This document shows, piece after piece, positions 14,245 through 34,703 of a stretch of DNA of 64,000 nt. Within the stretch, counting starts at the first letter, position 1; the number at the start of each line of letters is the position of its first letter. The translations under genes were made by a program, and so were the position numbers. Under the pieces are notes generated by a model, which was given only the letters and a program-made list of their open reading frames with translations, did no database searches and was not told where the DNA came from. Source of the DNA: Muribaculaceae bacterium (GTDB taxonomy: Bacteria; Bacteroidota; Bacteroidia; Bacteroidales; Muribaculaceae); contig JAFLUA010000005.1 in the NCBI GenBank assembly GCA_022508985.1, positions 62,001 through 126,000 on the forward strand, in the 5' to 3' direction.

Positions 14245-14269
14245 CAACCTTTTACAATAGAACAAAGCA

Positions 14270-14304
14270 GCGGCGCGGTATTTTCTACCACGCCGCCGTT
14301 TTTA
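14270..14304 (+). terminator. Terminator between convergent upp and nuoN
   Basis: An 11-bp GC-rich stem (gcggcgcggta / taccacgccgc, one mismatch) with the loop TTTTC is followed by a T run on the plus strand. It ends upp transcription and may also slow the converging 17-kb respiratory transcript. Confidence 0.85.
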
Positions 14305-14340: not shown

Positions 14341-15819
14341 CTATCCGATGAAATACATGCCGATTGAACTTACCGATGCCATATCGAGCAGGCTGCTGTA
14401 GAAACAGCTAACAATACCAAGCAATATTATTCCGGCTACGGTGATCCACAACCCGATACGCTCGCTGCAAGCAGAACGGAAATGCGGTATCACACATTCA
14501 TCTTCACTTATAAACATAGCTTTTACCACGAGGAGATAGTAGTAGAGCGAAATGATTGTGTTGATAAGGGCGATAAGCACCAACACATATATCGCTATGC
14601 TGCCATTATTTATAGCACTCGTAAAGATGAAGAATTTAGAGAAAAATCCGGCGAAGGGAGGTATGCCGGCCAAGGAGAACATGGCTAACATCATACAGAA
14701 TGAGAGGCGAGGATTGGTGCGATAAAGGCCCTTATAGTCATCCATCGACACCTTGCCCGTGGCATTCTCTATTGCAGATATAACACCAAACGCGGCAAGA
14801 TTAGAGAAGATGTAAACCAAAATGTAGTACATCAGCGCTGCCATACCCATGGTATTATATGCTATCACTCCAAGCATTATATAACCGGCCTGTGAGATTG
14901 AAGAGAACGCAAGGAAGCGTTTCATATTACGCTGCCGAATAGCAAAGAGGTTACCGACTGTTATCGTCAGGATGATAAGCGCATAAAGGATTCCCTCCCA
15001 CACTTCGCTATATAATGAGCCGAAGACCTGCGCTAATATCACGAGGAAGGCAAATGCTGCTGCGCCCTTCGATATTACAGATAGATAGGAAGTAACCGTT
15101 GTTGGCGCGCCTTGATATACGTCGGCCGTCCACAAATGGAACGGAACAAGCGACAGCTTGAAGCCGATACCGGATATTACGAAGGTGAGGGCTACAACAA
15201 GTAATGTCGACATCTTACCCGTTAGGGCAAAATAGATATCTTCGAAATAAAGCGAACCTGTCAGGCCATATACAAATGATAGTCCCATCATAAATATTGC
15301 CGAGGAGAACACCGCCGTTAAGATATATTTCACTGCAGCTTCATGGCTCTCATAGCGATATTTATCAAGTGCAACCATAGCAGCAAGCGGCAACGACGCA
15401 CACTCAAGACCTATGACGAAGAGAAGGAAGTGGCGCGCCGATATCATCAGATACATACCAAACAACGTGGTTAGTAGTAACTCATAGAACTCGCCGCGAC
15501 GAACTACCATACTGTCGCTGCCGGCCCATTTTATCGATTGTATTAGCACTATAACAACACCTACATTTAAGATACCCTTGATGGCGGCTATTACAGGGGT
15601 CGTTTCATACATGCCTGCAAATGATACTACGCTATCGGCTGTGCCAAGGCAGCAAGTACAGAATCCCGCTACGGTGGCCAGCAAGGTCAGCACTATGGTA
15701 AAGACCGGAAGGCCTTTCTGAGTAGATTTCGGCATAAAGGTGTCGTAAAAGAACACCAAGACAAAGACTACCAATAAGGCAATCTCTTGTTTCATAGACA
15801 AAAACTGCGAATAATCCAT
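14341..15819 (-). CDS. nuoN: NADH-quinone oxidoreductase subunit N
   Basis: A 492-residue antiporter-like membrane subunit of complex I with about 14 transmembrane helices. The conserved centre includes ARHFLLFVIGLECASLPL with the membrane Glu in helix 5 and FKLSLVPFHLWTADVYQGAPT in helices 7-8. It carries one of the proton pathways. It is the last gene of the nuo-atp-nuo block, 20 nt after nuoM. Confidence 0.95.
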   Translation of the reverse strand: MDYSQFLSMKQEIALLVVFVLVFFYDTFMPKSTQKGLPVFTIVLTLLATVAGFCTCCLGTADSVVSFAGMYETTPVIAAIKGILNVGVVIVLIQSIKWAGSDSMVVRRGEFYELLLTTLFGMYLMISARHFLLFVIGLECASLPLAAMVALDKYRYESHEAAVKYILTAVFSSAIFMMGLSFVYGLTGSLYFEDIYFALTGKMSTLLVVALTFVISGIGFKLSLVPFHLWTADVYQGAPTTVTSYLSVISKGAAAFAFLVILAQVFGSLYSEVWEGILYALIILTITVGNLFAIRQRNMKRFLAFSSISQAGYIMLGVIAYNTMGMAALMYYILVYIFSNLAAFGVISAIENATGKVSMDDYKGLYRTNPRLSFCMMLAMFSLAGIPPFAGFFSKFFIFTSAINNGSIAIYVLVLIALINTIISLYYYLLVVKAMFISEDECVIPHFRSACSERIGLWITVAGIILLGIVSCFYSSLLDMASVSSIGMYFIG

Positions 15820-15839
15820 TGCAATTTATCCTTAAAGGG

Positions 15840-17372
15840 TTACATACCGAGCACAGCGAAAATCGCAGGGCTGAAGGTGGTGTTAATCAAGTTATTGAAA
15901 AAGTCGGGGAAGCATCCTATGGCAGCTACGCAGAGAATAAGAGTAGCTGTAGCAGTGCGTTCCCACCATGTCGCATCGGTAAGCTGGCGATGATGTTCGT
16001 CCTGTACCGGGCCGAGTAGCAATTTACCGACAACACGGAGGATATACACCGCTGTTATAACTATTGAGCAACATGCTATTATCGTAAACACAAGGCGGAG
16101 CGATCCGGCACCTGCAAGGTAGTCGGCCATACCAGCCTTAAACGACCCAACGAATATGGTCATTTCGGCAACAAAACCGCTGAGACCCGGCAAGCCGAGA
16201 GAGGCCATACCTGCAATAACATAGCATACCGAGAGGTAAGGCAAAATCTGCATCATACCGCCCATCTGTGTTATTTCGCGAGTGTGCGTACGTCCGTAAA
16301 TCATACCGATTAAGGCAAAGAAGAGGGCCGTCATCAAACCATGTGAAAGCATCTGCATAATAGCGCCTGTCATTGCCGTGGTGTTGAGCATAAGTATTGC
16401 AAAGAGCACTAAGCCGCAGTGCGATACCGATGAATACGCATTAATATATTTCAGGTCGGTCTTAACACATGCACAGAAGGCTCCATATACCACTGAGATT
16501 CCGGTTAGGATTAGGAAAATCCACGCGAGTTCTTTAGCCGCAAACGGCATCAGATATATCGCTACTCTGAAGCAGCCATATCCTCCAAGTTTCATCAACA
16601 CACCGGCGTGGAGCATTGACACTGCTGTCGGAGCGGATGCGTGACCGTCGGGGCTCCACGTGTGGAATGGGAACATAGCTCCTAAAACTCCGAAGCCTAC
16701 AAAGGTCATCGGGAATAGGAAATACTGCCAATTTTGCGGTATAGCGTTATACGATGCTATCTCTAAGATGTTCCATGTAAGCGGAGAGCCTGCTGGTGCC
16801 GAGTGATAATATATGCCGATGAGGCCGAGCATTAAGAAGGCCGAGCCGCCCATAAGCATCAAGGTCAACTTCATTGCCGAGTAGTTCTTACGTCCTGAGC
16901 CCCAAACACCGATAAGAAGATACATCGGGATGAGCGCCACTTCGTAGAACATAAACATAGTGAACATATCGACTGATATGAAGAAACCGAACACACCGGT
17001 CGACAAGAGTATCAACCACAAGAAAAACTCTTTAGGCTGCTCTATTGTCCACGACGCAAAAGAACCCGTGAAGAGGATTATCGACGACAACAAGAGCATT
17101 GCTATAGAGATGCCATCGACACCGATAGCAAGGTTGATATGCAAGGGCTCAAACCACGTCCACGAATTCACAAATAGCATTGGAGACATATCTCCGCCCG
17201 AGCGCAGGTTGAGATATCGCAACAGCACTACTACCGACAACGCTATTAGCGCGGTAGATCCTATCACGGCAACGGTGCGTATCTGTCGGATATTACGACA
17301 TAGTGCTACTCCCGCAAGCATTAGTAGCGGAATTGCTACAAAGTATAATAATATATATGTATCGGAAAACAT
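15840..17372 (-). CDS. nuoM: NADH-quinone oxidoreductase subunit M
   Basis: A 510-residue antiporter-like proton-pumping subunit with about 14 membrane helices. Typical blocks are FMFYEVALIPMYLLIGVWGSG (Glu of helix 5), FPFHTWSPDGHASAPTAVSM and CVKTDLKYINAYSSVSH. It lies between NuoL and NuoN in the membrane arm of complex I, mirroring the gene order. Confidence 0.96.
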   Translation of the reverse strand: MFSDTYILLYFVAIPLLMLAGVALCRNIRQIRTVAVIGSTALIALSVVVLLRYLNLRSGGDMSPMLFVNSWTWFEPLHINLAIGVDGISIAMLLLSSIILFTGSFASWTIEQPKEFFLWLILLSTGVFGFFISVDMFTMFMFYEVALIPMYLLIGVWGSGRKNYSAMKLTLMLMGGSAFLMLGLIGIYYHSAPAGSPLTWNILEIASYNAIPQNWQYFLFPMTFVGFGVLGAMFPFHTWSPDGHASAPTAVSMLHAGVLMKLGGYGCFRVAIYLMPFAAKELAWIFLILTGISVVYGAFCACVKTDLKYINAYSSVSHCGLVLFAILMLNTTAMTGAIMQMLSHGLMTALFFALIGMIYGRTHTREITQMGGMMQILPYLSVCYVIAGMASLGLPGLSGFVAEMTIFVGSFKAGMADYLAGAGSLRLVFTIIACCSIVITAVYILRVVGKLLLGPVQDEHHRQLTDATWWERTATATLILCVAAIGCFPDFFNNLINTTFSPAIFAVLGM

Positions 17373-17414
17373 AATTAATTACTGATTTTAAGCATTTATA
17401 CCGTTTGTGATAGA

Positions 17415-19424
17415 TCAGATTAGACAGGCAACTGCTATTGCTCCTATTGCAAGGGCGCCGATGAGATAGTACCATACATACATCTGTATCTGTCCCGATT
17501 GCAAGGGCTTGATTGCCTCCGAAGCTTTGTTGGTAAGCGTTGCAAAAGCATCCATCGTCCCATCGATTATATGACGGTCAAACCATGCCAATGGGCGACT
17601 TATGCAGTTGAATATTATCTTGTGCGTAATGAAAATGTAAAGTTCATCCCAGTAGAAACGCTTGTAGCACCATGTCCACAATGTCGGTAGTGCTCTGCGG
17701 AACTTCGCAGGCAACTCATTCTCTTTGCGGTACATCACCGTTGCCAAGCCTATACCTACAAGAGCTACAACCAAGCTTACTGTGGCTACCGACCAATTGA
17801 AATGAGCCATAAAATCGTAGGCATGGCCATTCCATGTAACAAAATTGCCGAAAGGTATAAAACCTGCCACACACGAAATAGCGGCAAGGAGTACGAGCGG
17901 CAAGGTCATTGTCCATGCTTGATCGTGAGGTGCGTGATGGCCTTCGTGAACTTTATGCTCTTTCCACCAGAAGATAAGATAGTAAAGACGGAACATATAG
18001 AATGCCGTCATACCTGCTACAAGCGACATCCACAGATATGCTACCCAGCTATATTCGTTGCAGCTGCTCAAGATTTCATCTTTAGAGAAGAATCCGGCAA
18101 AGGGTATTATACCTGCTATTGCCAAACACCCGATTAAGAATGTTATGTGCGTGATAGGCATATGCTTACGCAGACCATGCATAGCCGTATAGTCGTTCGA
18201 CCCTACTGCGTGTATCAGAGCACCGGCTCCAAGGAAGAGCAAGGCCTTGAACATTGCATGCGTAAAGAGATGGAACATAGATGCCATATAGCCAAGTCCA
18301 TGATGGAACTCCGGACGTGCGACGCCAAGTGACACCATCATAAACGCTATCTGCGAAATGGTCGAGAATGCCAACACACGCTTGATGTCTATCTGTACAC
18401 ATGCTACCATAGCGGCATACAAGGCAGTGAGAGCGCCGACTACTGTTATGATAACAAGCGAGGTCTCTTCCATTAAGTAGAGCGGGAACAGACGTGCTAC
18501 CAAGTAAACACCGGCAACAACCATCGTGGCTGCGTGGATAAGTGCCGAAACAGGGGTTGGGCCTTCCATTGCATCGGGCAACCAGATGTGTAGCGGCATC
18601 ATAGCCGACTTACCCATACCGCCCATAAAGATGAGAACCAAAGCCCACGTGAGCACAGAGCCGCCCATAAAGACCGGAGCTGCACTGTTGGCAAATATCG
18701 AGCGTACGCCTTCGGCAGTGTTGCCGCTAACCTGGAACACATTCGTCATTCCTTCTACAGGTATCGACGTGAGCTCGGTAAAGTTAAACGTTCCGGTATA
18801 GTACGAGAGTGTTAAAATACCGATAAGGAATCCGAGGTCGGCAAATCGCGTAACGATAAACGCCTTTTTCGAGGCTGAAACAGCCGACGGCTTGGTGTAA
18901 TAAAAACCAATCAAAAGGTAAGATGAAGCACCTACAAGCTCCCAGAAAATATACATCTGGAAAATATTAGGAGCTACAACAAGACCGAGCATCGAGAATG
19001 TAAAGAGCGATAGAAATGCGTAAAAACGCTGAAAACCGCGCTCATACACGCCGTGATGGTCGCGCATATAACCCATAGAGTAGAGATGCACCATAAACGA
19101 TATCGTAGTTATCACCACGAGCATCATCGCCGATATGGGGTCGAGTAGGAAGCCAAGTTTTATAACGAGTTTCTCGGTGAAGGCCAACCATGTCTGGTCA
19201 AATACCAGATACTGTAGCCGCTCGCCGGCCGCGTTAATAAACTCGGGAGCACCGCTGAAGAAATATGTAAATGCGGTGAGGTATGAAAGCACCAGGACTG
19301 TGCCCATACCCAATGTGCCAAGCGTACCTGCCAATTTATAACTCATCTTCATGCCACAAAGGCCAAGGAAGATGAACATAAAGAGCGGTATGGCAAGAAT
19401 CAGAATTGGTATTATAATGTCCAT
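17415..19424 (-). CDS. nuoL: NADH-quinone oxidoreductase subunit L
   Basis: A 669-residue distal antiporter-like subunit. It has the conserved FWELVGASSYLLIGFYYT, MPLHIWLPDAMEGPTPVSAL and QIDIKRVLAFSTISQ. The extended C-terminal part (about 490-669) carries the long lateral helix that braces the membrane arm and a final membrane anchor. It starts 5 nt after nuoK, and nuoM follows after 42 nt. Confidence 0.96.
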   Translation of the reverse strand: MDIIIPILILAIPLFMFIFLGLCGMKMSYKLAGTLGTLGMGTVLVLSYLTAFTYFFSGAPEFINAAGERLQYLVFDQTWLAFTEKLVIKLGFLLDPISAMMLVVITTISFMVHLYSMGYMRDHHGVYERGFQRFYAFLSLFTFSMLGLVVAPNIFQMYIFWELVGASSYLLIGFYYTKPSAVSASKKAFIVTRFADLGFLIGILTLSYYTGTFNFTELTSIPVEGMTNVFQVSGNTAEGVRSIFANSAAPVFMGGSVLTWALVLIFMGGMGKSAMMPLHIWLPDAMEGPTPVSALIHAATMVVAGVYLVARLFPLYLMEETSLVIITVVGALTALYAAMVACVQIDIKRVLAFSTISQIAFMMVSLGVARPEFHHGLGYMASMFHLFTHAMFKALLFLGAGALIHAVGSNDYTAMHGLRKHMPITHITFLIGCLAIAGIIPFAGFFSKDEILSSCNEYSWVAYLWMSLVAGMTAFYMFRLYYLIFWWKEHKVHEGHHAPHDQAWTMTLPLVLLAAISCVAGFIPFGNFVTWNGHAYDFMAHFNWSVATVSLVVALVGIGLATVMYRKENELPAKFRRALPTLWTWCYKRFYWDELYIFITHKIIFNCISRPLAWFDRHIIDGTMDAFATLTNKASEAIKPLQSGQIQMYVWYYLIGALAIGAIAVACLI

Positions 19425-19429
19425 AGCGC

Positions 19430-19747
19430 TTAAAATTTCATTTCGTTAAGAGAGCGCACATCGATATTCTTTGCGGCTCGGAATATGTTGATTATAATTG
19501 CGATTGCCAATGCCGTTTCGGCAGCTGCTATTGCTATTGCAAATAGGGTAAAGAACATACCCTCCATTTGCTCCGGATAGAAAAATCGATTGAAGACAAC
19601 GAAATTAATATCGACAGCATTGAGCATAAGTTCAAGCGATATTAGCATCGCAATCATATTCTTACGCGTAATGAAGCCGTAAACACCGCAGCAGAACATT
19701 ATCAGAGCGGGAACGAGATAGTATATAGCTGTTATTTCCATAATCAT
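19430..19747 (-). CDS. nuoK: NADH-quinone oxidoreductase subunit K
   Basis: About 105 residues with three membrane helices. The conserved glutamates lie in LISLELMLNAVDINFVVF and IAIAAAETALAIAIIINIF. The start is either the ATG at 19747, which overlaps the nuoJ stop as TGATG, or the ATG six bases further on (MEITAIYYL). The overlap points to translational coupling with nuoJ. Confidence 0.94.
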   Translation of the reverse strand: MIMEITAIYYLVPALIMFCCGVYGFITRKNMIAMLISLELMLNAVDINFVVFNRFFYPEQMEGMFFTLFAIAIAAAETALAIAIIINIFRAAKNIDVRSLNEMKF

Positions 19748-20262
19748 CAACGTTTACGGGCAACGACTACGCCACCTATTATACATGCGAGTAGAAGAAT
19801 ACTTACAGCCTCAAACGGCAATAGATACTGCCCATGGCCGGTCCCCAACAACGCGGTACCGACAGCGTCCATATCGGGAGCTTCCATGGCCGGCTTGGCT
19901 GCGAAAGCAACCATCGTGCGGCTCACCAAAGCATAGCCTGCTACGACAAGCATCGCTACGGCGGCTATTGCACCCAACAAGCGCGATTTTGAGGTCAGTC
20001 GCTCGGTATTATCACCGGGACGGCTGGTAAGTAGAATGGCGAAGACAAACAGCACTACTATACCTCCTGCATATACGGCTATCTGCACCGCGCCAAGAAA
20101 CTCATAATCGAGCATGAAGTAGACCACAGCGGCGGCAAACAGGGTGAATAGGAGATAGGTGGCCGCACGCAATATCTTGCGCGTTGTCACTGCCATCACA
20201 GAGAAGACTATCATCGACAAAGCGACGATAAAATACAATATTAAACTTCCAAGTGATTCCAT
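19747..20262 (-). CDS. nuoJ: NADH-quinone oxidoreductase subunit J
   Basis: A 171-residue membrane subunit with five predicted helices, including the FLGAVQIAVYAGGIVVLFVFAI stretch that forms the pi-bulge helix near the quinone-coupling region. Length is normal for the family. It starts 8 nt after nuoI and overlaps nuoK. Confidence 0.93.
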   Translation of the reverse strand: MESLGSLILYFIVALSMIVFSVMAVTTRKILRAATYLLFTLFAAAVVYFMLDYEFLGAVQIAVYAGGIVVLFVFAILLTSRPGDNTERLTSKSRLLGAIAAVAMLVVAGYALVSRTMVAFAAKPAMEAPDMDAVGTALLGTGHGQYLLPFEAVSILLLACIIGGVVVARKR

Positions 20263-20270
20263 ATTTAGGT

Positions 20271-20903
20271 TTATTTATTTTCTTCGTTGTTTTCTGTCGG
20301 AGTTTCTGACGGAGCTGCACTTTCAGCATTGCTTTCGGCCGCTTCTTTGGCTGCCTTCGCTGCTGCCGCTTTCGCCTTAGCTTCGGCTATCTTTGCTTGT
20401 CTTTCAGCTTCGATACGGGCCAATTCCTCGGGGGTCGGTTCCGGCTCCGGTTTCTCAGGCAAGTAGTTGAGAAGCTTCACAAGCTTCGAACGTGTAAATA
20501 CTGCCTGCTCGAAGTCGTTGCTGAACTCGATAGCATTGGTCGGGCAATTGGTTACACACAATTGACAGAATGTGCAACTACCCAAGTCGTATAGATACTT
20601 GTCGAGTTTTTTCTTCTTCGTTCCGGCCGGAGTCGTTACCATCTTCGTCTCGATGGTAATAGTGCCGTTCGGACAATTACGTTCACAATTGCCACAGGCT
20701 ATACATTTGTGGTTGCCTTCGTCATCGTATATGAACTTTAATTCGGCACGGAATCGGTCGGCCGCTTTGAGTGTAAGGCGATCTTCGGGATAGCACTCGG
20801 TAATCTTAGGAGTTATAAACTCTTTCCCGGTAACCTTCATGCCCTTTAGCAGGCTTGCTATACCATAGCCTAACGATGAAAAATATTCTTTTACACTACC
20901 CAT
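20271..20903 (-). CDS. nuoI: NADH-quinone oxidoreductase subunit I with long C-terminal tail
   Basis: A 210-residue ferredoxin-like subunit with two [4Fe-4S] motifs: C67-x2-C70-x2-C73-x3-C77 and C110-x2-C113-x2-C116-x3-C120. These carry electrons towards the N2 cluster in NuoB. After about residue 150 comes a 60-residue low-complexity tail rich in Pro, Glu, Ala and Lys, probably a charged helix followed by a disordered end. It is the first nuo gene after the embedded atp operon, 42 nt from the atpG stop, with no visible terminator or promoter between them. Confidence 0.95.
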   Translation of the reverse strand: MGSVKEYFSSLGYGIASLLKGMKVTGKEFITPKITECYPEDRLTLKAADRFRAELKFIYDDEGNHKCIACGNCERNCPNGTITIETKMVTTPAGTKKKKLDKYLYDLGSCTFCQLCVTNCPTNAIEFSNDFEQAVFTRSKLVKLLNYLPEKPEPEPTPEELARIEAERQAKIAEAKAKAAAAKAAKEAAESNAESAAPSETPTENNEENK

Positions 20904-20945
20904 TTGTTCGTTTGAGTATTAGTTCTGTTATTTCTATATATTGTG

Positions 20946-21842
20946 TCAATCGCGTATCTGGCCGCCGACAATGTCGAGCAACTCCGTTGTAATACTCTGT
21001 TGACGTAATTTATTATATTCGAGTTGTAATTGTTCAAGCAACTTCTGTGCATTGTCATTGGCACTTTGCATTGCCATCACCCTGGCAGCCTGCTCGCTTG
21101 CGCGATTTTGCGCAAAGGCTTCCTGCAGTACCGACAACAGATACATCGGTAGCACCGTAGCAAAAATCGTAGCGGCATCCGGCTCAAATAGATATGGACG
21201 TCCTCCTTTATTTTTGCCGGAGGTCGACGAGAGCACTTCTTGCGATACCGGCAGATAGGTGTCCGACTTGAGCCGCTGCTTGCCTGCCGAATGGAAGTGC
21301 ATATATTGTAATAGCACTCGGCCAAGGTCGCCCGTCAAGAAGCGATGCTCTAAATACTGTGCAAACTCCTTAACAGAATCGCCTTCGCTTTTCGAGTCAA
21401 TACCGCTATACGGCTTTAATTCTATTTTCGAATCCGATATAGATATTTTTTCAACCGCTTTATACATTTTCTTACCTACGGTGATTATCTCGATTTCGAG
21501 ACCTTCGCCTAACTCTTTGCGGAGGCCGGCAATGGTATCGAGCATCCCTTTGAAGATATTCACATTGTAGGCGCCACATAAGCCGTCATCGCTGCCGAAT
21601 ACTACTATTCCTACTCGATTAACTGCCACCGGTGCTTGTGTGAGGGCCGAGCTAACGGCTGCATCCGATGACAACAAATTGCCGATAATAGTCTGAACGC
21701 ACTCACGGAATGGCAACAGACGCCGCAAGACTCCCTCTGCCTTGTGCATTTTGGCAGATGAAATCATTTTCATTGCTCCCGTTATCTTCTCTGAAGATGC
21801 TACGGAGCCGATTCGGCCTTTAAGTTCTCGTAATGTCGCCAT
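20946..21842 (-). CDS. atpG: ATP synthase F1 gamma subunit
   Basis: A 298-residue central stalk subunit. The N-terminal helix (LRELKGRIGSVASSEKITGAM) and the C-terminal helix (RVMAMQSANDNAQKLLEQLQ to the end) form the rotor coiled coil inside the alpha3beta3 ring; the DGLCGAYNVNI block is the conserved Rossmann-like part. It is the last atp gene, directly before nuoI. Confidence 0.96.
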   Translation of the reverse strand: MATLRELKGRIGSVASSEKITGAMKMISSAKMHKAEGVLRRLLPFRECVQTIIGNLLSSDAAVSSALTQAPVAVNRVGIVVFGSDDGLCGAYNVNIFKGMLDTIAGLRKELGEGLEIEIITVGKKMYKAVEKISISDSKIELKPYSGIDSKSEGDSVKEFAQYLEHRFLTGDLGRVLLQYMHFHSAGKQRLKSDTYLPVSQEVLSSTSGKNKGGRPYLFEPDAATIFATVLPMYLLSVLQEAFAQNRASEQAARVMAMQSANDNAQKLLEQLQLEYNKLRQQSITTELLDIVGGQIRD

Positions 21843-21862
21843 TTAATACTTGTGTATATTTA

Positions 21863-23437
21863 TTACTGAAATCGTGCTGCTACGTCTTTTGCGGCTGCTG
21901 TCAGTTTCGCTGCTACGTCGTCGGTAAGTTTTCCTTGCGCCAATTCGGCAAGAACGTCGTCGGCGTGTTTTGCTTGGAGCAACTGCAGATATTGTTTCTC
22001 AAAATCGGCAACCTTCGACAATGGTATGTTTTCGAGCAAACCGTTTACTCCACAATATATTATCGCAATTTCTTGTTCGACTGGCATAGGACGATACTGC
22101 GGCTGTATCAGCAGGCGCTCGTTTTTCTGTCCTTTATCGATGACACGTGCGGTAACGGCATCCATATCGCCGCCGAATTTGGTAAACGACTCTAACTCGC
22201 GGAACTGTGCCTGGTCGATTTTGAGCGTACCTGCCACTTTTTTCATGGCTTTCACCTGTGCGTTACCACCAACACGCGACACCGAGATACCTACGTTGAT
22301 AGCCGGACGGATACCGCGATTGAATAGTGCTGTCTCGAGGAATATCTGGCCATCGGTAATAGAAATCACATTAGTTGGGATATACGCCGAAACGTCGCCC
22401 GCCTGCGTCTCTATAATAGGAAGCGCTGTCAACGAGCCGCCTGCCTTTACCATGGGCTTGAGCGGCGCCGGTAGGTCGTTCATTTGTGATGCCACCTCCT
22501 GGTTGTTGATAATCTTTGCGGCACGTTCAAGCAATCTTGAATGCAGATAGAAGATATCACCGGGATATGCCTCACGGCCCGACGGTCGCTTTAAGATGAG
22601 CGATACTTCGCGGTAAGCTACGGCCTGTTTCGATAGGTCATCGTATACGATTAGAGCATCACGTCCGGTATCTCTGAAATATTCACCGATAGCAACTCCG
22701 GCAAAAGGTGCAAAGTAACGCATAGCGGCCGATTCCGAAGCTGTTGCTGCCACAACTACCGTATAGTCCATGGCTCCGTTTTGACGCAATGTCTCAACGA
22801 TAGAAGCTACCGACGAGGCTTTCTGCCCTATCGCTACATAGATACAATATACCGGCTTACCGGCTTCGAATTCCTTGCGCTGATTGATAATCGTATCAAT
22901 TGCGATTGCTGTCTTACCTATCTGGCGGTCGCCGATAATAAGCTCGCGCTGTCCGCGACCTATAGGAACCATCGCATCTATTGCCTTAAGGCCCGTCTGT
23001 AACGGCTGTGTTACCGGTTGACGATATATTACACCGGGGGCTTTGCGCTCCAGTGGCAGGCGGATAAGGTCGCCGCCTATAGGTCCGCGACCATCGATGG
23101 GCTCGCCAAGAATGTTGATGACACGTCCCAGCAAACTTTCGCCCACGGGGATTGAGGCTATCTCGCCGGTACGTCGAACGGTCATATTCTCGGTAACTTT
23201 ATCTACGCTATTAAGGAGAATGACACCAACGTTACTCTCCTCAAGGTTCATTGCTACTCCTTTTACACCGTTTTCAAACTCTACCAGTTCGTTTGCGCCG
23301 ACATTGTCGAGGCCATAGACGTGTGCAACGCCGTCGCCAACTTCAAGAACGGTTCCTACCTCTTCAAAGGCTACTTTTGAATTGACGTTTTCAAGCTGTT
23401 GCTTCAATACTTCTGAAATCTCGCTGGGATTTATCAT
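21863..23437 (-). CDS. atpA: ATP synthase F1 alpha subunit
   Basis: A 524-residue non-catalytic nucleotide-binding subunit. The P-loop is GDRQIGKT (169-176), the arginine finger lies in [11 protein letters not shown], and [16 protein letters not shown] is the Walker B block. The C-terminal helical bundle is complete. It starts 42 nt after atpH. Confidence 0.97.
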
Positions 23438-23479
23438 TTGCTTGCGTGAACTTGCGTTTTACAATGGTTGGTTTGTTGT

Positions 23480-24019
23480 TTAGCCGAGTAACTGTAGCCT
23501 CAACTGTTTCAGCTGGCTGGCAACAGATACGTCGAGACGCTCGGAATTGACGGTTATGGTAAAACCTCCTATTAACGAGGCATCTACCTTGTATTCATAT
23601 TCGACACTGCCTTTACCGATATGTCCGGAAACGAAACTCTCAATACGCGTTTTCTCCGCAGTGCCCAACGTCGTGGCACTTACTACTGTTACGCGGTAGA
23701 TATTGTTCTGTCTACGATAAATATCAACAAAAGCGCGGGCTATATCCCATGCCATATCCAAGCGCCCGTTCTGCGACAGCAACTTGAGGAAATCGCCATA
23801 TAGCGCATTATCGCTTTCTCCGGCTGCTGTCACCAATAACTGCACTTTGTCCGACTCGCCTACAAAAGGATTGGCTACCGTTGCCGACAATGAGGGGTGC
23901 TGCGCAAAATTGGAATCGACACGCTGCATCAACTCATAGATAGCTTCGTTGGAGCCCTTCTCCAAGCCCGTCATATAAAGCGCTTTGGCATATCGCCGTG
24001 GGATTAGTCCGTTGTCCAT
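23480..24019 (-). CDS. atpH: ATP synthase F1 delta subunit
   Basis: A 179-residue stator subunit linking the top of F1 to the b stalk. The N-terminal helical domain begins IPRRYAKALYMTGLEKGS. The C-terminal DASLIGGFTITVNSERLDVSVASQLKQLR matches the conserved end of the family. Its gene starts 3 nt after the atpF stop. Confidence 0.93.
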   Translation of the reverse strand: MDNGLIPRRYAKALYMTGLEKGSNEAIYELMQRVDSNFAQHPSLSATVANPFVGESDKVQLLVTAAGESDNALYGDFLKLLSQNGRLDMAWDIARAFVDIYRRQNNIYRVTVVSATTLGTAEKTRIESFVSGHIGKGSVEYEYKVDASLIGGFTITVNSERLDVSVASQLKQLRLQLLG

Positions 24020-24022
24020 AGT

Positions 24023-24520
24023 TTAATTATTCTTTTCAATCTCGTCGAGCATAGCATCTACAAGTGCATTCTGCGCATTATCGCTTTGCAACTGGTTATG
24101 CACTATTTTGCCTGCTATTTCTATTGCGAAATTGCTGACTTGGTTGCGGAATTGTTGTTGTGCCTCTTTTTGTTGTTGCTGAATCTGGAGTTTTGCGTTA
24201 TCCATTACTTTCTGAGCCTCAACCTGTGCGGCAGAGCGAGCCTGCTCGATAATTTGTGTTTGCATTTTCTCGGCCTCGCGTAGCATTTCAGCTTGCTGAC
24301 GTCGCGCTTCATTGATATACGATTCGGCCTCGGTGCGCGCATTATCAAGTTGCTCTTTTGCTGCTTGCGCATATTCCACACCCTTGTCGATGAACTCGGC
24401 TCGGTCGTCGACTCCTTTCAAGATTGCAGGCCAGGCAAACTTCCACAACGCGAGGAAGAGGATGCCGAAAGCCACAAACATCCAGAATACAAGACCGAAA
24501 TCGGGAGTGAACAGTTCCAT
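24023..24520 (-). CDS. atpF: ATP synthase Fo b subunit
   Basis: A 165-residue peripheral stalk subunit with one N-terminal membrane helix (about 8-30), then a long charged coiled coil rich in Ala, Glu and Gln (about 35-150). This is the normal b-subunit shape. It lies between atpE and atpH. Confidence 0.94.
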   Translation of the reverse strand: MELFTPDFGLVFWMFVAFGILFLALWKFAWPAILKGVDDRAEFIDKGVEYAQAAKEQLDNARTEAESYINEARRQQAEMLREAEKMQTQIIEQARSAAQVEAQKVMDNAKLQIQQQQKEAQQQFRNQVSNFAIEIAGKIVHNQLQSDNAQNALVDAMLDEIEKNN

Positions 24521-24539
24521 TTAATCAGCCTTTTTCTAA

Positions 24540-24797
<258 letters not shown>

Positions 24798-24820
24798 TTA
24801 GTTATTTATTTAATTATCAA

Positions 24821-25924
24821 TTATTCTGTCACCTGCTTTTCCTCTTTATCTTCATGTGAATGATGCTCTTCGTTTGCCAACCCGATAAATATCGTTGACA
24901 ACATCGTAAACACATATGCCTGGATAAAGCTTACAAGCACATCTATCAACAACATGAAGATTGAAAATATCAACGACACAACCGTTGCTGCTCCTCCGGC
25001 TACAGGGTTGATTGCCGAGAAGATGAAAATTAGCAAGGTAAGTGTAATCACTATCATGTGACCGCCCATCATGTTGGCGAAGAGACGCACCGTCAATGCT
25101 GCTGGCTTGGTAAACATACCGAAAATCTCTATAACAGGCATTATGGGCAGTGGGGCCTTTAGCCATAGAGGCACTTCGGGCCAAAATATCTCTTTCCAAT
25201 AATGGCGGTTGGCAAAAAGATTGGTAGCCAGGAAGGTGCATATCGCCAACACCATCGTCACGGCTATATTGCCTGTAAGATTGGCGCCGCCGGGGAAGAT
25301 TACTATCAGCCCGAGGAGATTCATCACAAGGATGAAGAAAAAGACTGTCATTAGATAGGGCGCGAAACGCTTCGCATTAGGCCCGAGGATAGGCTTAACG
25401 ACGCCATCGTATACAAAGGTTACGCACACCTCAATAGCGCCAAGGCCCTTTCGCGGTGCTTTATACGGATGCTTACGATGATAGGATGCCAACCAGAATA
25501 GCAGACCGCATACTAAAAGCACGGTAATAAACAATGCACATACGTTTTTCGTGATTGAGAAATCCCACGGCCGTATTTCTTCATTGCCTACTACTTCCAC
25601 TACTTTCCCTTTGTAAGCACTGTCTTCGCCTCCGATGCGGAACAGACAATTGCCATCGGCATATTCTTGGCCATGAGATAGACGTGCCGATGAGAAACAA
25701 TGCAACCCATCGCTCGCCCACACTATAACTGGGAGCGGTATGCGATGATGGTGGTTGAATGGTACTTCCCATCCATATCCGTCGCCAAGGTGCTCGAATA
25801 TTATTTCTTTAGGATTGATGCCACTATCGGCCGACTCAGGCTCTGCGCTCGACGTCGCTGTAGCTGTCAACGACGTTATCATCGCAACAATCAAAGCCGT
25901 AAGTATTGTTCTGAGATTGGTCAT
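24821..25924 (-). CDS. atpB: ATP synthase Fo a subunit with exported N-terminal extension
   Basis: A 367-residue stator channel protein. The essential arginine is Arg280 in ALTVRLFANMMGGH, and the last helices match the family. About 125 residues precede the first Fo helix: a signal-peptide-like start (1-27, cut near TSSAEP), then a region with NHHHR (58-61) and several aromatic residues that should face the periplasm. Longer a subunits of this type are usual in Bacteroidetes. Only 6 nt separate it from atpC, leaving no room for an atpI-like gene. Confidence 0.94.
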   Translation of the reverse strand: MTNLRTILTALIVAMITSLTATATSSAEPESADSGINPKEIIFEHLGDGYGWEVPFNHHHRIPLPVIVWASDGLHCFSSARLSHGQEYADGNCLFRIGGEDSAYKGKVVEVVGNEEIRPWDFSITKNVCALFITVLLVCGLLFWLASYHRKHPYKAPRKGLGAIEVCVTFVYDGVVKPILGPNAKRFAPYLMTVFFFILVMNLLGLIVIFPGGANLTGNIAVTMVLAICTFLATNLFANRHYWKEIFWPEVPLWLKAPLPIMPVIEIFGMFTKPAALTVRLFANMMGGHMIVITLTLLIFIFSAINPVAGGAATVVSLIFSIFMLLIDVLVSFIQAYVFTMLSTIFIGLANEEHHSHEDKEEKQVTE

Positions 25925-25930
25925 AGCGGA

Positions 25931-26167
25931 TTAATATAAGCAGACGGATATTATATTATTATCAACATCGACTATTCCTCCTGTAATGTCGGTGCTTTGG
26001 GCATTACCTGCTGCATCGACATAGCGTATCTTCCCTGATGCCAATGTTGCCAATAATGAGGCGTGATTTTGCAATACAGTAAACTCGCCCATCGTGCCGG
26101 GCAACGTTACGCTTGTAACTTCGCCTGTGTATATCACTTCTTGAGCGGAGATAATCTGTAGTTTCAT
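25931..26167 (-). CDS. atpC: ATP synthase F1 epsilon subunit (short form)
   Basis: A 78-residue protein that is only the N-terminal beta sandwich of epsilon (LQIISAQEVIYTGEVTSVTLPG, then GEFTVLQNHASLLATL). The C-terminal two-helix domain that inhibits ATP hydrolysis in enterobacteria is missing. The stop is clean and the next gene begins 6 nt later, so this is a naturally short form and not a truncation. Confidence 0.92.
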   Translation of the reverse strand: MKLQIISAQEVIYTGEVTSVTLPGTMGEFTVLQNHASLLATLASGKIRYVDAAGNAQSTDITGGIVDVDNNIISVCLY

Positions 26168-26191
26168 TGCGGTAATGCCGTTTCTGTTTTA

Positions 26192-27727
<1,536 letters not shown>

Positions 27728-27730
27728 CTA

Positions 27731-28807
27731 TTAGAAGTAGAGATTGTATACGACTACAAGAGCCATCAATACTAAGTTTACGAGATTTATCGGAAGTAAA
27801 TATTTCCATTCAAGTGACAACAATTGGTCGATACGTAGACGAGGGAATGTCCACTTAAACCATATGATGACAAAAGATAGAACAAATGCTTTTCCTAAAA
27901 ACCATATTACCGATGGTATATAGTCCATTACGTTGTTAAACGCTTCCCATCCGGGTATGTGAAGCGGCATCCAGCCCCCGAAGAAGAGGAGTGCTGCGAC
28001 ACCCGACACGATGAAAAGATTGAGGTATTCGGCCAAATAGAAGAAACCGAAGTGTATACCGGAATACTCTGTGTGATATCCCGCCGTAAGCTCACTTTCA
28101 GCTTCCGGCAAGTCAAACGGGCCGCGGTTGGTTTCTGCCGTGCCTGCTATCATATATATCACAAAAGCTATTATTGCCGGCACGTGGCCTTTGAATATAA
28201 ACCAGAGATCCGATTGCTGCGATACTATGCCGTCGACCGACATTGTGCCGGCTAAACATACCATAGTTATCACCGATAGCCCGATAGACAACTCGTAGCT
28301 CACCATCTGTGCACCGGAACGTAGCGACCCGATTAGGGTAAACTTATTATTTGACGACCATCCGGCCAATAATATTCCAAGAACGCCTATCGACGATACC
28401 GCAATCAGGAAGAAGATACCGATATTGAAGTTGACTATCTGCAATCCGTTACCCCACGGGAGAACGGCAAAGGCCATCATCGACGCCGCGATAACAAGAT
28501 AGGGCGCTAAGGCAAAGAGAAAACGATCGATATGGTTCAGATGGATAATTTCTTTAATCAACATCTTAAACATATCTGCAAAACTCTGCAGTACGCCCCA
28601 CGGGCCTACGCGGTTAGGGCCAAGACGGCACTGGAAAGCCGCACATAACTTGCGTTCATAATAAATATAGAAAAGTGCAAGCAAGGCGTATACGAGCAAC
28701 AGGGCGACACCGATAAGCACGCACTCTACCGTCACTGTGAGCCAACCCGGCATATATGAACGGAGCAAGGAGTCGAGCCACGATGTTATTAATGAAAAAT
28801 CTTGCAT
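27731..28807 (-). CDS. nuoH: NADH-quinone oxidoreductase subunit H
   Basis: A 358-residue membrane subunit with about eight helices that anchors the peripheral arm and helps build the quinone chamber. Signature blocks are [22 protein letters not shown] and [26 protein letters not shown]. The next gene downstream is atpD, not nuoI, which is the odd junction in this locus. Confidence 0.96.
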
Positions 28808-28848
28808 AATGCTTTATATATTACTGATAATGCTTTGTCTTGTTTGTC

Positions 28849-30480
28849 TTATCGGTCGATATCCGGTACTATATAGTCGAGTGAACCTCCGATGGTGATA
28901 AGGTCGGCTATCTTCTGCCCGCGTGTTATGTGATCGACTACGGCCGCTTGAGGCAAGCACGGCGGGGCTATCTTCAAGCGATATGGCTTGGTAGAACCGT
29001 CACTTTCAAGATAGAGACCAAAAGCGCCACGGCAGCCTTCGGTAAGTTGGAACCACTTACCAACAGGCAATTTGAGTACTTTGGGCACTTTTACACAGTA
29101 TTCGCCGTCGGGGATATCATCGACGAGCTGGGCGAGTATCTTTGCCGATTCTTCCATTTCGCGCATACGGCATTTGAAGCGGGCCATCGAATCGCCTTCA
29201 CTCGCTACTACTTCCTCAAAATCAAGCTCGGAATAGATGCTGTAGGGCTGTAGCTTGCGCATATCGCACGCCCAGCCTGAAGCTCGTCCCGACGGGCCTG
29301 TTATAGCGTATCCGATAGCATCTTCGCGGCTCAACACGCCAACACCTTCCATACGGTTTTTGGCGATGATGTTGCCGGTGAACACTTCGTTATATTCTTT
29401 GATATTTTTCGGCAAAACTTCGAGGAGCGCCTTGACATCGGCCTGGAAGTCGGGATGCAAATCTTGCATCACGCCACCAATACAATCGTAGTTGAAGGTC
29501 ATGCGCGCACCGCACGTCTTTTCCATAATGTCGAGAATTTGTTCTCGCACGCGCAAGGCATAGAAAAGCATCGTGGTAGCACCAAGGTCCATGCAATATG
29601 TACCTATAAACAAGCAGTGCGATGCTATACGCGAAAGCTCATCCATCATCACGCGTATAACCTGGGCGCGACGGCTGATTTCTATCCCTGCAGCCTTCTC
29701 GATAAGCATGCACAACCCATGGTGGTAGTTATGTGCCGAGAAGTAGTCGAGACGATCCATATAGTGAAGCGTCTGTGGATAGGTCAAGTTCTCGCAAAGT
29801 TTTTCTACTCCGCGGTGGATATAGCCGCAATATACATCGATTTTCTTGATTGTTTCGCCATCGACTGCGGTGCGGAAACGCAACACTCCGTGCGTTGCCG
29901 GGTGCTGCGGCCCTATATTGACTACAAAATCTTCTTTCTGGAAAATGCGCTCGCTACGCTTAACTATGTTGCCATCTTCACCGAGCGTATAGATGTCGGT
30001 AAAGTCGGTTTGACGTTCGCTCTCCGTCGACACCGGATTAACTTCCGGGTCATCGTTATAATCTTTTCTCAATGGATATCCCACCCAATCGATATTAAGG
30101 AAGAGACGGCGCATGTCCGGGTTGTTCAAGAAGATTATGCCGAAGAAGTCAAATACTTCGCGCTCATATAGCGTCGCAACGGCCCACACATCGGCTACGC
30201 TCGGTATAACAGGCTGTTGTCTATCGCCTGAAGCAAGCACCTTAACGCCTATAACCTCATTAGTATGGGTCGACATCAGATAGTAGATACAACCGAGATT
30301 CTCGGTCCAATCCATACCTACTATCGTTACTAAGTAATCAAATTTAAGGTCGGCATCATTTTTGAGGGCCAAAGCCACTTCATGCCATTTGTCGTTAGCC
30401 ACTACATAAAGAGGGGTATTACTCTCCTCTATGGTGACGTCCGGAAAAAGTTGTGTTATCTTATCGGTGATATTAGCCAT
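28849..30480 (-). CDS. nuoCD: NADH-quinone oxidoreductase subunit C/D fusion
   Basis: A 543-residue fusion. The NuoC part covers about 1-145 (LYEREVFDFFGIIFLNNPDMRRLFL), a linker follows, and the NuoD part runs from about 185, beginning VVNIGPQHPATHGVLRF. NuoD supplies the quinone-site His of that motif and a Tyr further on. Fused CD forms occur in Bacteroidetes and in enterobacteria. It starts 20 nt after nuoB. Confidence 0.95.
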   Translation of the reverse strand: MANITDKITQLFPDVTIEESNTPLYVVANDKWHEVALALKNDADLKFDYLVTIVGMDWTENLGCIYYLMSTHTNEVIGVKVLASGDRQQPVIPSVADVWAVATLYEREVFDFFGIIFLNNPDMRRLFLNIDWVGYPLRKDYNDDPEVNPVSTESERQTDFTDIYTLGEDGNIVKRSERIFQKEDFVVNIGPQHPATHGVLRFRTAVDGETIKKIDVYCGYIHRGVEKLCENLTYPQTLHYMDRLDYFSAHNYHHGLCMLIEKAAGIEISRRAQVIRVMMDELSRIASHCLFIGTYCMDLGATTMLFYALRVREQILDIMEKTCGARMTFNYDCIGGVMQDLHPDFQADVKALLEVLPKNIKEYNEVFTGNIIAKNRMEGVGVLSREDAIGYAITGPSGRASGWACDMRKLQPYSIYSELDFEEVVASEGDSMARFKCRMREMEESAKILAQLVDDIPDGEYCVKVPKVLKLPVGKWFQLTEGCRGAFGLYLESDGSTKPYRLKIAPPCLPQAAVVDHITRGQKIADLITIGGSLDYIVPDIDR

Positions 30481-30500
30481 AATAAGAATGTGTTGCGTGG

Positions 30501-31109
30501 TTAGGCTTCTGTCTGCTCTACTGGGTGAAGGGCCAGAAAGTCTTTTTGTTTTTCCTTACGGTTAACGCCACCGAAGAAGCGTTCAACCTTCATTTTGCGC
30601 GATAACTGCATTATGCCGTATATCATTGCCTCGGGACGCGGAGGACATCCGGGAACGAATACATCAACGGGAACGATGTCCTGTATGCCTTTGGCTACGT
30701 GGTAGCTCTTGCGGAATGGACCGCCCGAGATAGCACACGACCCGCAGGCTATAACATATTTAGGCTCGGCAAGTTGGTCGTATAGACGACGGAACACCGG
30801 AACCATACGATGTACTATCGTACCGGCCACCATCATAAAGTCGGCTTGGCGGGGCGACGATCGCGCTACTTCCCATCCAAATCGTGCCATATCGAAGCGT
30901 GCCGCTCCTAACGACACAAACTCAATGCCACAACAGCTCGTAGCAAAGGTCAACGGCCATATCGAATTCGAACGGCCCCAGTTTATCAGCTTATCAAACG
31001 ACCCGACGATAATATTCGTGCCGTTTTCCTGCAACTCCTTGACGAGTTGCTCTATATACTCATTGTCTTTGAATGCCTCGTAAGGCATACTTTTTGTTGT
31101 TACTTCCAT
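30501..31109 (-). CDS. nuoB: NADH-quinone oxidoreductase subunit B
   Basis: A 202-residue subunit holding cluster N2, the last iron-sulfur centre before quinone. All four ligands are visible: Cys59-Cys60 (TSCCGIEF), Cys125 (CGSCAISGGPF) and Cys155 (VPGCPPRPEA). The start codon lies 10 nt inside the end of nuoA, so translation is probably coupled. Confidence 0.96.
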   Translation of the reverse strand: MEVTTKSMPYEAFKDNEYIEQLVKELQENGTNIIVGSFDKLINWGRSNSIWPLTFATSCCGIEFVSLGAARFDMARFGWEVARSSPRQADFMMVAGTIVHRMVPVFRRLYDQLAEPKYVIACGSCAISGGPFRKSYHVAKGIQDIVPVDVFVPGCPPRPEAMIYGIMQLSRKMKVERFFGGVNRKEKQKDFLALHPVEQTEA

Positions 31110-31480
31110 TCAAGTGCTCCTTTCCGCCAGGCATATACAAGACCCAGCACTAAGACGCCAAAGAAGATGGCTATACTTAATAAACCATTAACGCCGAGCT
31201 CGTTCATTCTCACTGCCCAAGGGAAGAGGAATACGGTTTCGACGTCGAACATAAGGAACAGAATTGCGAAGAGGTAGTACCCTACTTTGAATTGCGACAT
31301 ACTTTCGCCTCGCGTCGGTATTCCGCACTCATAGGCCTCTCCTTTTTGAGGATTAAACGACCTCGGCGAGATGAGCTTGGCTATCCATAATGCGAGAAAA
31401 ACCAGAGCAACGCCGGTGAGGAGGGCTGTTACACCCAAGAGGCCATTGTTCTCAATTCCAAAGATGGCTGTTGATATCAT
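31100..31480 (-). CDS. nuoA: NADH-quinone oxidoreductase subunit A
   Basis: A 126-residue membrane subunit with three helices and the conserved loop KGEAYECGIPTRGES between helices 1 and 2, which closes the quinone chamber. FAILFLMFDVETVFLFPWAV is the other signature. It is first in the 18-gene respiratory block, about 70 nt downstream of a consensus promoter. Confidence 0.95.
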   Translation of the reverse strand: MISTAIFGIENNGLLGVTALLTGVALVFLALWIAKLISPRSFNPQKGEAYECGIPTRGESMSQFKVGYYLFAILFLMFDVETVFLFPWAVRMNELGVNGLLSIAIFFGVLVLGLVYAWRKGALEWK

Positions 31481-31556: not shown

Positions 31557-31587
31557 CAAAGATACAATTTTTTTAACCAATATCCAA
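31557..31587 (-). promoter_or_regulatory. Promoter for the nuo-atp-nuo operon
   Basis: On the minus strand TTGG (31587-31584), a 19-nt spacer and TATCTTTG (31564-31557) closely fit the Bacteroidetes consensus. The leader to the nuoA ATG would be about 70 nt. It is the only clear promoter seen for the whole 17-kb block. Confidence 0.75.
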
Positions 31588-31683
31588 TTGTTAAAATAAA
31601 AAAATTTTCTCACTCTATGAACTAATTGCACAATAGAAACGTTTTACTATCAAAATCAAGTTTAACATTTAAATAATAGTATT

Positions 31684-32004: not shown

Positions 32005-32283
32005 TTATTTCCTTTTTCTGAACATCGGGGCTATTAATTTCACCACCTTCAAGCCCATATACGCATACTCTGCTATCGAGAATGCACCGGCGATACGCGA
32101 TATCAACGACGACGTGCCACCAAGAAAGGGCGTACGTTGCTTCATATCATCATATTGCGCCGACATTTTGAACTTCTGTATCTCCATACGCGCACGGACC
32201 AATGCTCTGCGCATCTGGATTTCCTCTAATGTATAGCCCCGCCATGATGGCTGGTCGTTATGATACGGGGGTAGATTCATCAT
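32005..32283 (-). CDS. Small conserved basic protein, unknown function
   Basis: A 92-residue protein not assigned to a family. The start is soluble (SWRGYTLEEIQMRRALVRAR), the middle is helical and charged, and the end has a moderately hydrophobic stretch (AFSIAEYAYMGLKVVKLIAP) closed by RKRK. Its start overlaps the end of the holin-like gene by 26 nt, so it is probably coupled to that gene and acts at the membrane. I do not recognise a function. Confidence 0.7.
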   Translation of the reverse strand: MMNLPPYHNDQPSWRGYTLEEIQMRRALVRARMEIQKFKMSAQYDDMKQRTPFLGGTSSLISRIAGAFSIAEYAYMGLKVVKLIAPMFRKRK

Positions 32284-32650
32284 TTTTCTGTTCGTTTTGA
32301 GGAGCCGTTAGCACCAAGCGTGAAACAAAACGGGCAATAGGATTGACAAGCAAGGGCTTGCGACATAGTATCAGTACTACTAAGACTATTACGTAAAACG
32401 AGGCCACTATTATCAATGCCCACATCGGACTGATGGCATTGGCCAACACCAATGCTATCGCCGTCGACACAAAAACAAGCGACACCACTCCTACGATGAT
32501 TAGCAACGAGCAAAAGGCAAGGGCCGACAACAGTCGTGTCAGCTTCTCGGCCATGGTTAGACGCGCATCTTCAAGGAGTAACTTAGCATACTGAACCAGC
32601 ACCCGGGCAAGCCCGGATGCCGTATTTTCTTTAGCGTCAGACTTCATCAT
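32258..32650 (-). CDS. Phage-holin-like superfamily membrane protein (YqjE/DUF1469 type)
   Basis: A 130-residue protein with an amphipathic N-terminal part (LVQYAKLLLEDARLTMAEKLTRLLS) and two strong membrane helices (about 43-73 and 78-97). This is the layout of the holin 3_6 / YqjE families, which despite the name are chromosomal membrane proteins often beside YtxH genes. No lytic or phage gene is near. It starts at the stop of the upstream YtxH gene (TAATG overlap). Confidence 0.8.
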   Translation of the reverse strand: MMKSDAKENTASGLARVLVQYAKLLLEDARLTMAEKLTRLLSALAFCSLLIIVGVVSLVFVSTAIALVLANAISPMWALIIVASFYVIVLVVLILCRKPLLVNPIARFVSRLVLTAPQNEQKNDESTPVS

Positions 32651-32841
32651 TACTGTTTGTCTTCCACTTGAGAGGCTATCATCTCAACGAGTTCGTCGAT
32701 ATCGTCGGCTTCAATAATTCCTCTTTTTTGCAGTATAAGTTTAATGCGTGCGCGCAATTCAGGTCCTGTCGTCGGTGTTAACAACGCTGTCGCAATAGCG
32801 CCTACTGCCGCACCCAATATAAAAGTTGCAAAATCTCTCAT
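32650..32841 (-). CDS. YtxH-like protein
   Basis: A 63-residue protein with one N-terminal Ala/Gly-rich membrane helix (FILGAAVGAIATALLTPTTG) and a helical charged tail (ELRARIKLILQKRGIIEADD). This is the YtxH/gas-vesicle-protein-like layout. Role unknown; envelope stress is often suggested. It forms a cluster with a second YtxH gene and the holin-like gene. Confidence 0.8.
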   Translation of the reverse strand: MRDFATFILGAAVGAIATALLTPTTGPELRARIKLILQKRGIIEADDIDELVEMIASQVEDKQ

Positions 32842-32853
32842 AGTCTTACTCGT

Positions 32854-34668: not shown

Positions 34669-34703
34669 AACAAACAATTTTAATAGATTGTAGTGATTTG
34701 ATG

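Follow-up and report, generated by a model that had tools for sequence, protein, structure and literature searches.

Nesting of an ATP Synthase Operon within a Complex I Operon in a Clade of Bacteroidales

Complex I and ATP synthase are normally encoded by operons that stand apart from each other. The DNA considered here, a stretch of 64,000 nucleotides (nt) from a Muribaculaceae bacterium (the window, meaning the whole stretch analyzed), raises the question of how the two came to be joined and whether they are now expressed as one. The window is part of a 2.07-Mb genome that is 99.9% complete (G000:C14). On its minus strand, from 31480 to 14341, lie 18 intact open reading frames (ORFs), head to tail, whose Pfam and NCBIfam matches give the order nuoA-B-CD-H, then atpD-C-B-E-F-H-A-G, and then nuoI-J-K-L-M-N. 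The inserted block holds a complete F-type ATP synthase set (a, b, c, alpha, beta, gamma, delta, and epsilon), all intact; the largest spacer across the 18 genes is 42 nt, and two gene pairs overlap. A first-pass annotation had described a complete ATP synthase operon embedded in a complex I operon, and the same-strand ORFs, family matches, and short spacers bear that description out. On the sequence evidence, the arrangement is best explained as a true, clade-wide nesting of one operon in the other. A single event appears to have merged both operons in what are now at least seven Bacteroidales families, including every genome surveyed of one of them.

The complex I operon is of the 11-subunit type, with ten genes (nuoA, B, CD, H, I, J, K, L, M, and N). 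It contains no nuoE, F, or G, as the 14-subunit NADH-oxidizing type would. A single match to the 51-kDa-type family PF01512 is present in the genome (contig C13, 448 amino acids), where it adjoins a match to PF03116, and NuoE and NuoG families were not searched genome-wide. We read the PF01512/PF03116 pair as a probable RnfC beside RnfD, and the second PF03116 gene of the genome fits NqrB. The 11-subunit operon of Bacteroides fragilis likewise has ten genes and is missing the NADH module. It is reported to confer no NADH:quinone activity, to show poor expression in rich medium, and to be dispensable in mice, where deleting it carries no colonization cost (PMC7002350).

A single F-type a-subunit gene is found in the window genome, and the other nested genomes likewise have one each. 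PF00006 has three matches in the window genome: the alpha subunit, the beta subunit, and a 646-residue ORF elsewhere, which from its size we take to be Rho. Because there is a single a-subunit gene and the PF00006 matches are accounted for, the nested block is the only F-type ATP synthase of the cell, and, provided that the 646-residue ORF is Rho, the genome would have no V-type ATP synthase.

Distribution and Phylogeny of the Nested Order

Within Muribaculaceae (family code f1), we surveyed 136 genomes, each at least 95% complete, and the nuoH-atp joint is present in all of them. In 129, nuoH and atpB lie on one contig and strand, 2133–2777 bp apart; in six, a contig break falls within the block but the nuoH contig runs into atpD; and in the last, G324, the nested order was read directly in sequence. 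The count of 136/136 applies to nuoH-atp; for the atpG-nuoI joint, the evidence comes from those loci with retrieved sequence. Because every family genome carries this joint, the nested order is far beyond chance. Among named relatives, we took the best 80 of 250 by NuoH (79–92% identity), which include Paramuribaculum intestinale DSM 100749 (L036), Muribaculum sp., many metagenome-assembled genomes (MAGs) labeled Muribaculaceae, and some other submitter labels. In 79 of these 80 loci atpD is the next gene after nuoH (78 at a stricter cut-off), the remaining locus ending inside nuoH, and the full block through to nuoI is visible in 54. Five of the records with a nested block (L027, L024, L037, L040, and L045) are labeled Clostridium, Bacteroides, or Barnesiella and have a nuoH 80–84% identical to that of the window; these labels look doubtful.

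Across the order, our sample comprised 148 Bacteroidales genomes with 109 family codes, 96 of which gave a NuoH-family match. The 71 loci read (the window and 70 of the 80 NuoH matches above 250 bits, with flanks) come from 64 genomes; nine of the 80 were left out, of which two are fragments at contig ends and seven are whole genes, most of them second copies. Twelve of the 71 loci, from seven families (f1, f18, f24, f54, f61, f80, and f99), are nested. The other 59, from 41 other families, are un-nested, with nuoI as the next nuo or atp gene after nuoH. They comprise 47 loci of the 11-subunit type (nuoCD before nuoH), 11 without nuoCD before nuoH, and one distant relative (L158), such that within the 11-subunit type alone the comparison is 12 nested with 47 un-nested. 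In those 47 loci nuoI follows nuoH, whereas the window has eight atp genes in between. No family among the 48 represented by these 71 loci has both arrangements.

The statement in the first-pass annotation that the two operons are separate in Bacteroidales is thus upheld for most of the order, 41 of the 48 families read being un-nested, and a universal nested order is rejected by the 59 un-nested loci. Nested families are a minority of the order (7 of 48), but the arrangement is not special to the window genome, being found in all f1 genomes surveyed and in six other families.

Beyond Bacteroidales, 71 of 79 sampled genomes from other Bacteroidota have a NuoH match, and none showed a nuoH/atpB pair within 3 kb on the same contig, most pairs being on different contigs. 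The two genes share a contig in only 28 NuoH/a-subunit pairs, counting that of the window (seven weak NuoH and six second a-subunit rows being omitted), and adjacency across contig ends is possible for the remaining pairs. Of the same-contig pairs other than the window's, the closest are in G169 and G149. In the first, a distant member of the phylum (G169:C2, L333), nuoH and atpB lie on the same strand at a distance of 13.5 kb, separated by genes of the opposite strand, and are not nested; in G149 they are 15.2 kb apart on opposite strands.

The nested genomes form one clade in every tree: with support of 100/100 for RpoBC (11 nested of 29 rows) and for ribosomal proteins (12 of 30 rows), and with Shimodaira–Hasegawa-like approximate likelihood ratio test (SH-aLRT) values of 100 for Nuo and 98 for Atp (8 of 22 rows each). 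The 22-row trees use rows picked from larger sets (55 for Atp, 61 for Nuo), and larger FastTree runs of Nuo and Atp also give a single nested clade. The ribosomal tree includes one spurious 97-residue antisense ORF among seven, and one nested genome, G080, has no RpoB match and hence is not in the RpoBC tree. Because the four trees agree on a single clade, one insertion would be the simplest history.

In the atp regions covered, atpBEFHAG stands without adjoining atpDC in the majority of un-nested Bacteroidales (21 genomes) and in ten class-level outgroups; one of the 21 (G116) has a contig that starts just upstream, and in G002 atpDC sits at the opposite end of atpBEFHAG. A fused, un-nested atpDC-BEFHAG is found in families f9, f16, f20, f26, f37, f53, and f96, and f83 has a split atp despite its position inside the fused subclade. 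The nested genomes carry the same fused eight-gene block inside nuo, and their atp genes group with the un-nested fused operons in a single atp subclade. Judged from these orders and trees, nesting is the second of two joinings, the fusion of atpDC with atpBEFHAG having come first. This fusion has been published for Bacteroides and Prevotella, with the identical eight-gene order (beta-epsilon-a-c-b-delta-alpha-gamma); there atp is described as a unit of its own, whereas the nested atp lies within nuo and has no conserved promoter box of its own (PMC5709465). Published surveys of ATP synthase loci in bacteria cover the splitting and fusion of these loci, Bacteroidetes among them, and a text search of each for "nuo" gave no hits (PMC4154653, PMC5709465). 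We recognized no paper describing the nesting in the open-access literature searched, and, as far as our searches show, it is new as a gene-order variant.

Transcription Signals and the Possible Coupling of Pump and Synthase

Upstream of nuoA, the minus strand of the window at 31588–31557 reads ATTGGATATTGGTTAAAAAAATTGTATCTTTG and contains an exact TAnnTTTG, which we take to be the consensus of the Bacteroidetes-type −7 box. We counted exact TAnnTTTG boxes within 200 nt upstream of genes in de-duplicated nested loci, with expectations from shuffles. The box precedes nuoA in 69 of 80 loci (10.0 expected), at a median position of −136. Before atpD it is rarer than expected (3/90 versus 8.8, leaving 87 loci without one), and before nuoI it occurs in 1 of 66 loci (1.5 expected; 65 without). 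In un-nested loci, the box is found before atpD in 6 of 9 (1.4 expected) and before atpB in 21 of 36 (5.1 expected), and before nuoI in 3 of 64 (10.3 expected). Strict −33/−7 scoring over 150 nt gives 21% at nuoA versus 0–5% elsewhere; the longer interval with the exact −7 box is clearer. A σ70-type scan returned 29 sites versus 30.7 expected, the σ70 pattern being uninformative for this phylum.

No terminator-like site was called on the minus strand of the window at either the nuoH-atpD or the atpG-nuoI joint. In relatives, a hairpin of −8 kcal/mol or stronger before a T-run follows nuoH in 0 of 96 cases and atpG in 1 of 68 (some genomes being counted twice); the same scan found none after nuoN (0/10) and so has no positive control. 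A single strand, short spacers, a conserved order, and the lack of a conserved internal promoter or terminator are what a single operon would show, with the exceptions given below. The first-pass annotation had named a promoter before nuoA and had seen neither promoter nor hairpin at the two joints, and both statements agree with the box and hairpin counts. These data favor a single promoter before nuoA. Because boxes are rare before nested atpD yet common before un-nested atpD and atpB, it appears that the atp block no longer has a start of its own, and the motif pattern would say that nested atp is not a transcription unit of its own.

The gene order, its distribution, the single clade, and the promoter-motif pattern are observed; from them we infer one transcript, joint regulation, and retention by selection rather than lock-in. 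We consider the following history likely. atpDC would have joined atpBEFHAG to give a fused eight-gene operon. This operon would then have moved once, in the common ancestor of at least seven Bacteroidales families, the window's included, and landed between nuoH and nuoI in a ten-gene complex I operon of the 11-subunit type, without nuoEFG. Its own promoter would have been lost or fallen silent. The resulting 18 genes are probably transcribed today as one unit from the promoter before nuoA, an arrangement that would have been kept since.

Several findings weigh against so simple an account. The un-nested nuoA control is tiny, with a box in one of three readable loci. G080, which branches first among the nested genomes in both the Nuo and the Atp tree, has TAnnTTTG at −109 and −51 before atpD; L039 and L109 each have one before atpD, and L100 (G054) has one before nuoI. 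Nested loci also show an excess of boxes upstream of nuoL (12/65, 4.4 expected) and nuoM (12/63, 4.5 expected), which would stem either from constraint on the coding sequence or from internal promoters toward the end of the unit. Given the boxes before atpD in G080, L039, and L109, there may be internal promoters in places. Codon usage gives no clear sign of matched expression. The atp-nuo difference between 12 nested and 27 un-nested genomes has p = 0.025 for G+C at third codon positions (GC3) and p = 0.16 for NNC codons, and neighbors share composition anyway; relative to rpoB (11 nested, 14 un-nested), p is 0.34 for distance, 0.046 for NNC in nuo-rpoB, and 0.40 for NNC in atp-rpoB, such that the tests disagree.

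If the single-unit reading is correct, the only F-type ATP synthase of these cells would depend on the promoter of a complex I without NuoEFG. A synthase under the promoter of such a complex I, which in B. fragilis is dispensable in mice and poorly expressed, implies that nuo is expressed at the level of ATP synthase or that the ratios are set by translation or RNA processing; either nuo has become a main, steadily expressed pump, or nuo is carried along with ratios set post-transcriptionally. That the output of pump and synthase is fixed jointly, as the first-pass annotation proposed, we can only infer. Translation can still set ratios, G080 has candidate boxes before atpD, and the complex I operon is one without nuoEFG. 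The nesting makes it possible to test directly whether the two machines need separate tuning of their output and what role complex I without NuoEFG plays in Bacteroidales. In the nested clade, a polar block of nuo should remove ATP synthase as well. We regard as doubtful a stronger proposal, in which the pump and the only F-type synthase are one regulated and perhaps co-assembled unit, the NADH-module-free complex I, accessory in Bacteroides, is now an obligatory and highly expressed partner in making ATP, and the order is selected for co-translational placing in the same membrane patch.

The alternative that competes best, to which we give a little under half of our credence, accepts a single insertion and disputes only that coupling was selected. 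The insertion would have been a harmless accident with no functional benefit, and the nesting would stay because any excision must spare both multigene units and give atp a promoter. A single clade with no reversal seen inside it is what this predicts, B. fragilis without nuo colonizes mice normally (PMC7002350), and codon usage gives no clear sign of matched expression. Against it, the window's flanking genes are almost never kept beside the block (in flanks of up to 17 kb, these ORFs have few, scattered, and mostly weak matches in other nested genomes), yet the nuoH-atp joint is uncut throughout f1, which points to constraint. If both operons have to stay intact, much of that constraint would be accounted for.

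An unlikely alternative to the single unit is that of two overlapping units, in which a promoter inside nuoH, whether of a type other than TAnnTTTG or simply hard to recognize because it is weak, drives atp and the nesting matters little for regulation. The box-like sites before atpD in G080, L039, and L109 are consistent with this reading, and ATP synthase is normally required at higher levels than complex I. The depletion of boxes before nested atpD, set beside their frequency before un-nested atpD, argues against it.

Source of the Inserted atp Operon

A further difficulty for the single-insertion history comes from G096 (family f96), whose contig C8 (L159, L179) has nuo and atp un-nested, on opposite strands and with about 11 kb between them. 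In the Atp tree, the atp of G096 is the sister group of the nested atp, with a shared stem of 0.33, and a grouping with G019, G008, and G145 is rejected (approximately unbiased (AU) test, p = 8.6e-55). The nuo of G096 falls with that of G019; the RpoBC and ribosomal trees put the genome outside the nested clade; grouping it with the nested genomes is rejected for RpoBC (AU p = 1.7e-6), ribosomal proteins (1.4e-10), and Nuo (2.2e-4). The position of G096 thus differs between atp, nuo, and informational genes, and transfer of one or more of its energy operons, in either direction, is probable. The long atp stem shared with G096 bears on the source of the inserted block.

One way to read that stem is that the ancestral nested lineage acquired an atp operon from outside, which landed in nuo, and lost its native atp. 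We think this improbable. The stem length and the separation of G096 from the nested genomes in the RpoBC, ribosomal, and Nuo trees are in keeping with it, but transfer into G096 explains the same trees, the nuo of G096 is misplaced as well, the nested atp still lies within the order's own fused DC-BEFHAG group, and faster evolution would likewise give a longer stem. An artefact of assembly or binning, suggested by the many MAGs, is rejected as exceedingly improbable, as the same order recurs across 136 genomes of one family and seven families in all, including P. intestinale DSM 100749 and the single-contig genomes G324 (3.3 Mb) and G306.

A second conflict is seen in G008 (f9; L140, L161, L277, and L317), whose Nuo and Atp fall beside f53 and whose RpoBC and ribosomal proteins fall with G103. 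This may be a tree artefact of long informational branches or another transfer.

Coordinates and Neighboring Features

Features of the nested block in the window, in transcriptional order, with the evidence for each
Feature	Position	Strand	Evidence
Predicted promoter of the 18-gene unit	31557..31588	-	Bacteroidetes −33/−7 type, TTG ... TATCTTTG, leader ~70 nt
nuoA	31100..31480	-	PF00507, E 2.3e-36
nuoB	30501..31109	-	PF01058
nuoCD (fused)	28849..30480	-	PF00329 + PF00346
nuoH, final nuo gene ahead of insertion	27731..28807	-	PF00146, E 3.3e-118
nuoH-atpD junction, 36 nt	27695..27730	-	ORF boundaries
atpD (beta)	26192..27694	-	PF00006
atpC (epsilon, 78 amino acids, N-terminal domain only)	25931..26167	-	PF02823
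atpB (a)	24821..25924	-	PF00119, sole match in genome
atpE (c)	24540..24782	-	PF00137
atpF (b)	24023..24520	-	PF00430
atpH (delta)	23480..24019	-	PF00213
atpA (alpha)	21863..23437	-	TIGR00962, E 1.7e-225
atpG (gamma)	20946..21842	-	TIGR01146 above cut-off
atpG-nuoI junction, 42 nt	20904..20945	-	ORF boundaries
nuoI	20271..20903	-	Best model TIGR01971, E 2e-27, under its cut-off
nuoJ	19747..20262	-	Best model NF005168, E 2.1e-24, under its cut-off
nuoK	19430..19750	-	NF004320 above cut-off
nuoL	17415..19424	-	TIGR01974 above cut-off
nuoM	15840..17372	-	TIGR01972 above cut-off
nuoN, last gene of block	14341..15819	-	TIGR01770 above cut-off
Candidate terminator, strong hairpin of 13 pairs (9 G-C), weak T tail	14268..14298	-	Consensus match only

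Ten proteins were identified with Pfam and the remainder with NCBIfam, which was also applied again to nuoCD and nuoH. The products of nuoK, nuoL, nuoM, nuoN, nuoCD, nuoH, atpA, and atpG each score above the curated cut-off of at least one NCBIfam model; the best models for nuoI and nuoJ fall under theirs, and the identity of these two genes comes from best model, position, and neighbors. In the 5′ part of nuo, nuoA and nuoB overlap by 10 nt and the spacers that follow are 20 (nuoB-nuoCD), 41 (nuoCD-nuoH), and 36 nt (nuoH-atpD). Those within atp, from atpD to atpG, are 24, 6, 38, 19, 3, 42, and 20 nt. In the 3′ part they are 42 (atpG-nuoI) and 8 nt (nuoI-nuoJ), followed by a 4-nt overlap of nuoJ with nuoK and spacers of 5, 42, and 20 nt. 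An AtpC without its C-terminal half is a trait known for Bacteroidetes and Chlorobi (PMC4154653).

Upstream of nuoA, at 32005–33057 on the minus strand of the window, lie small YtxH-like and holin-like genes, named by eye. ORFs resembling them, again by eye, follow atpG on contig C8 of G096 (33580–34669, plus strand). In another genome (G228:C11, L291), nuoI is followed by a run of N and then by unrelated genes, with nuoJ-N not in the next 8 kb; this discontinuity is probably a scaffold join, although it could be a real break.

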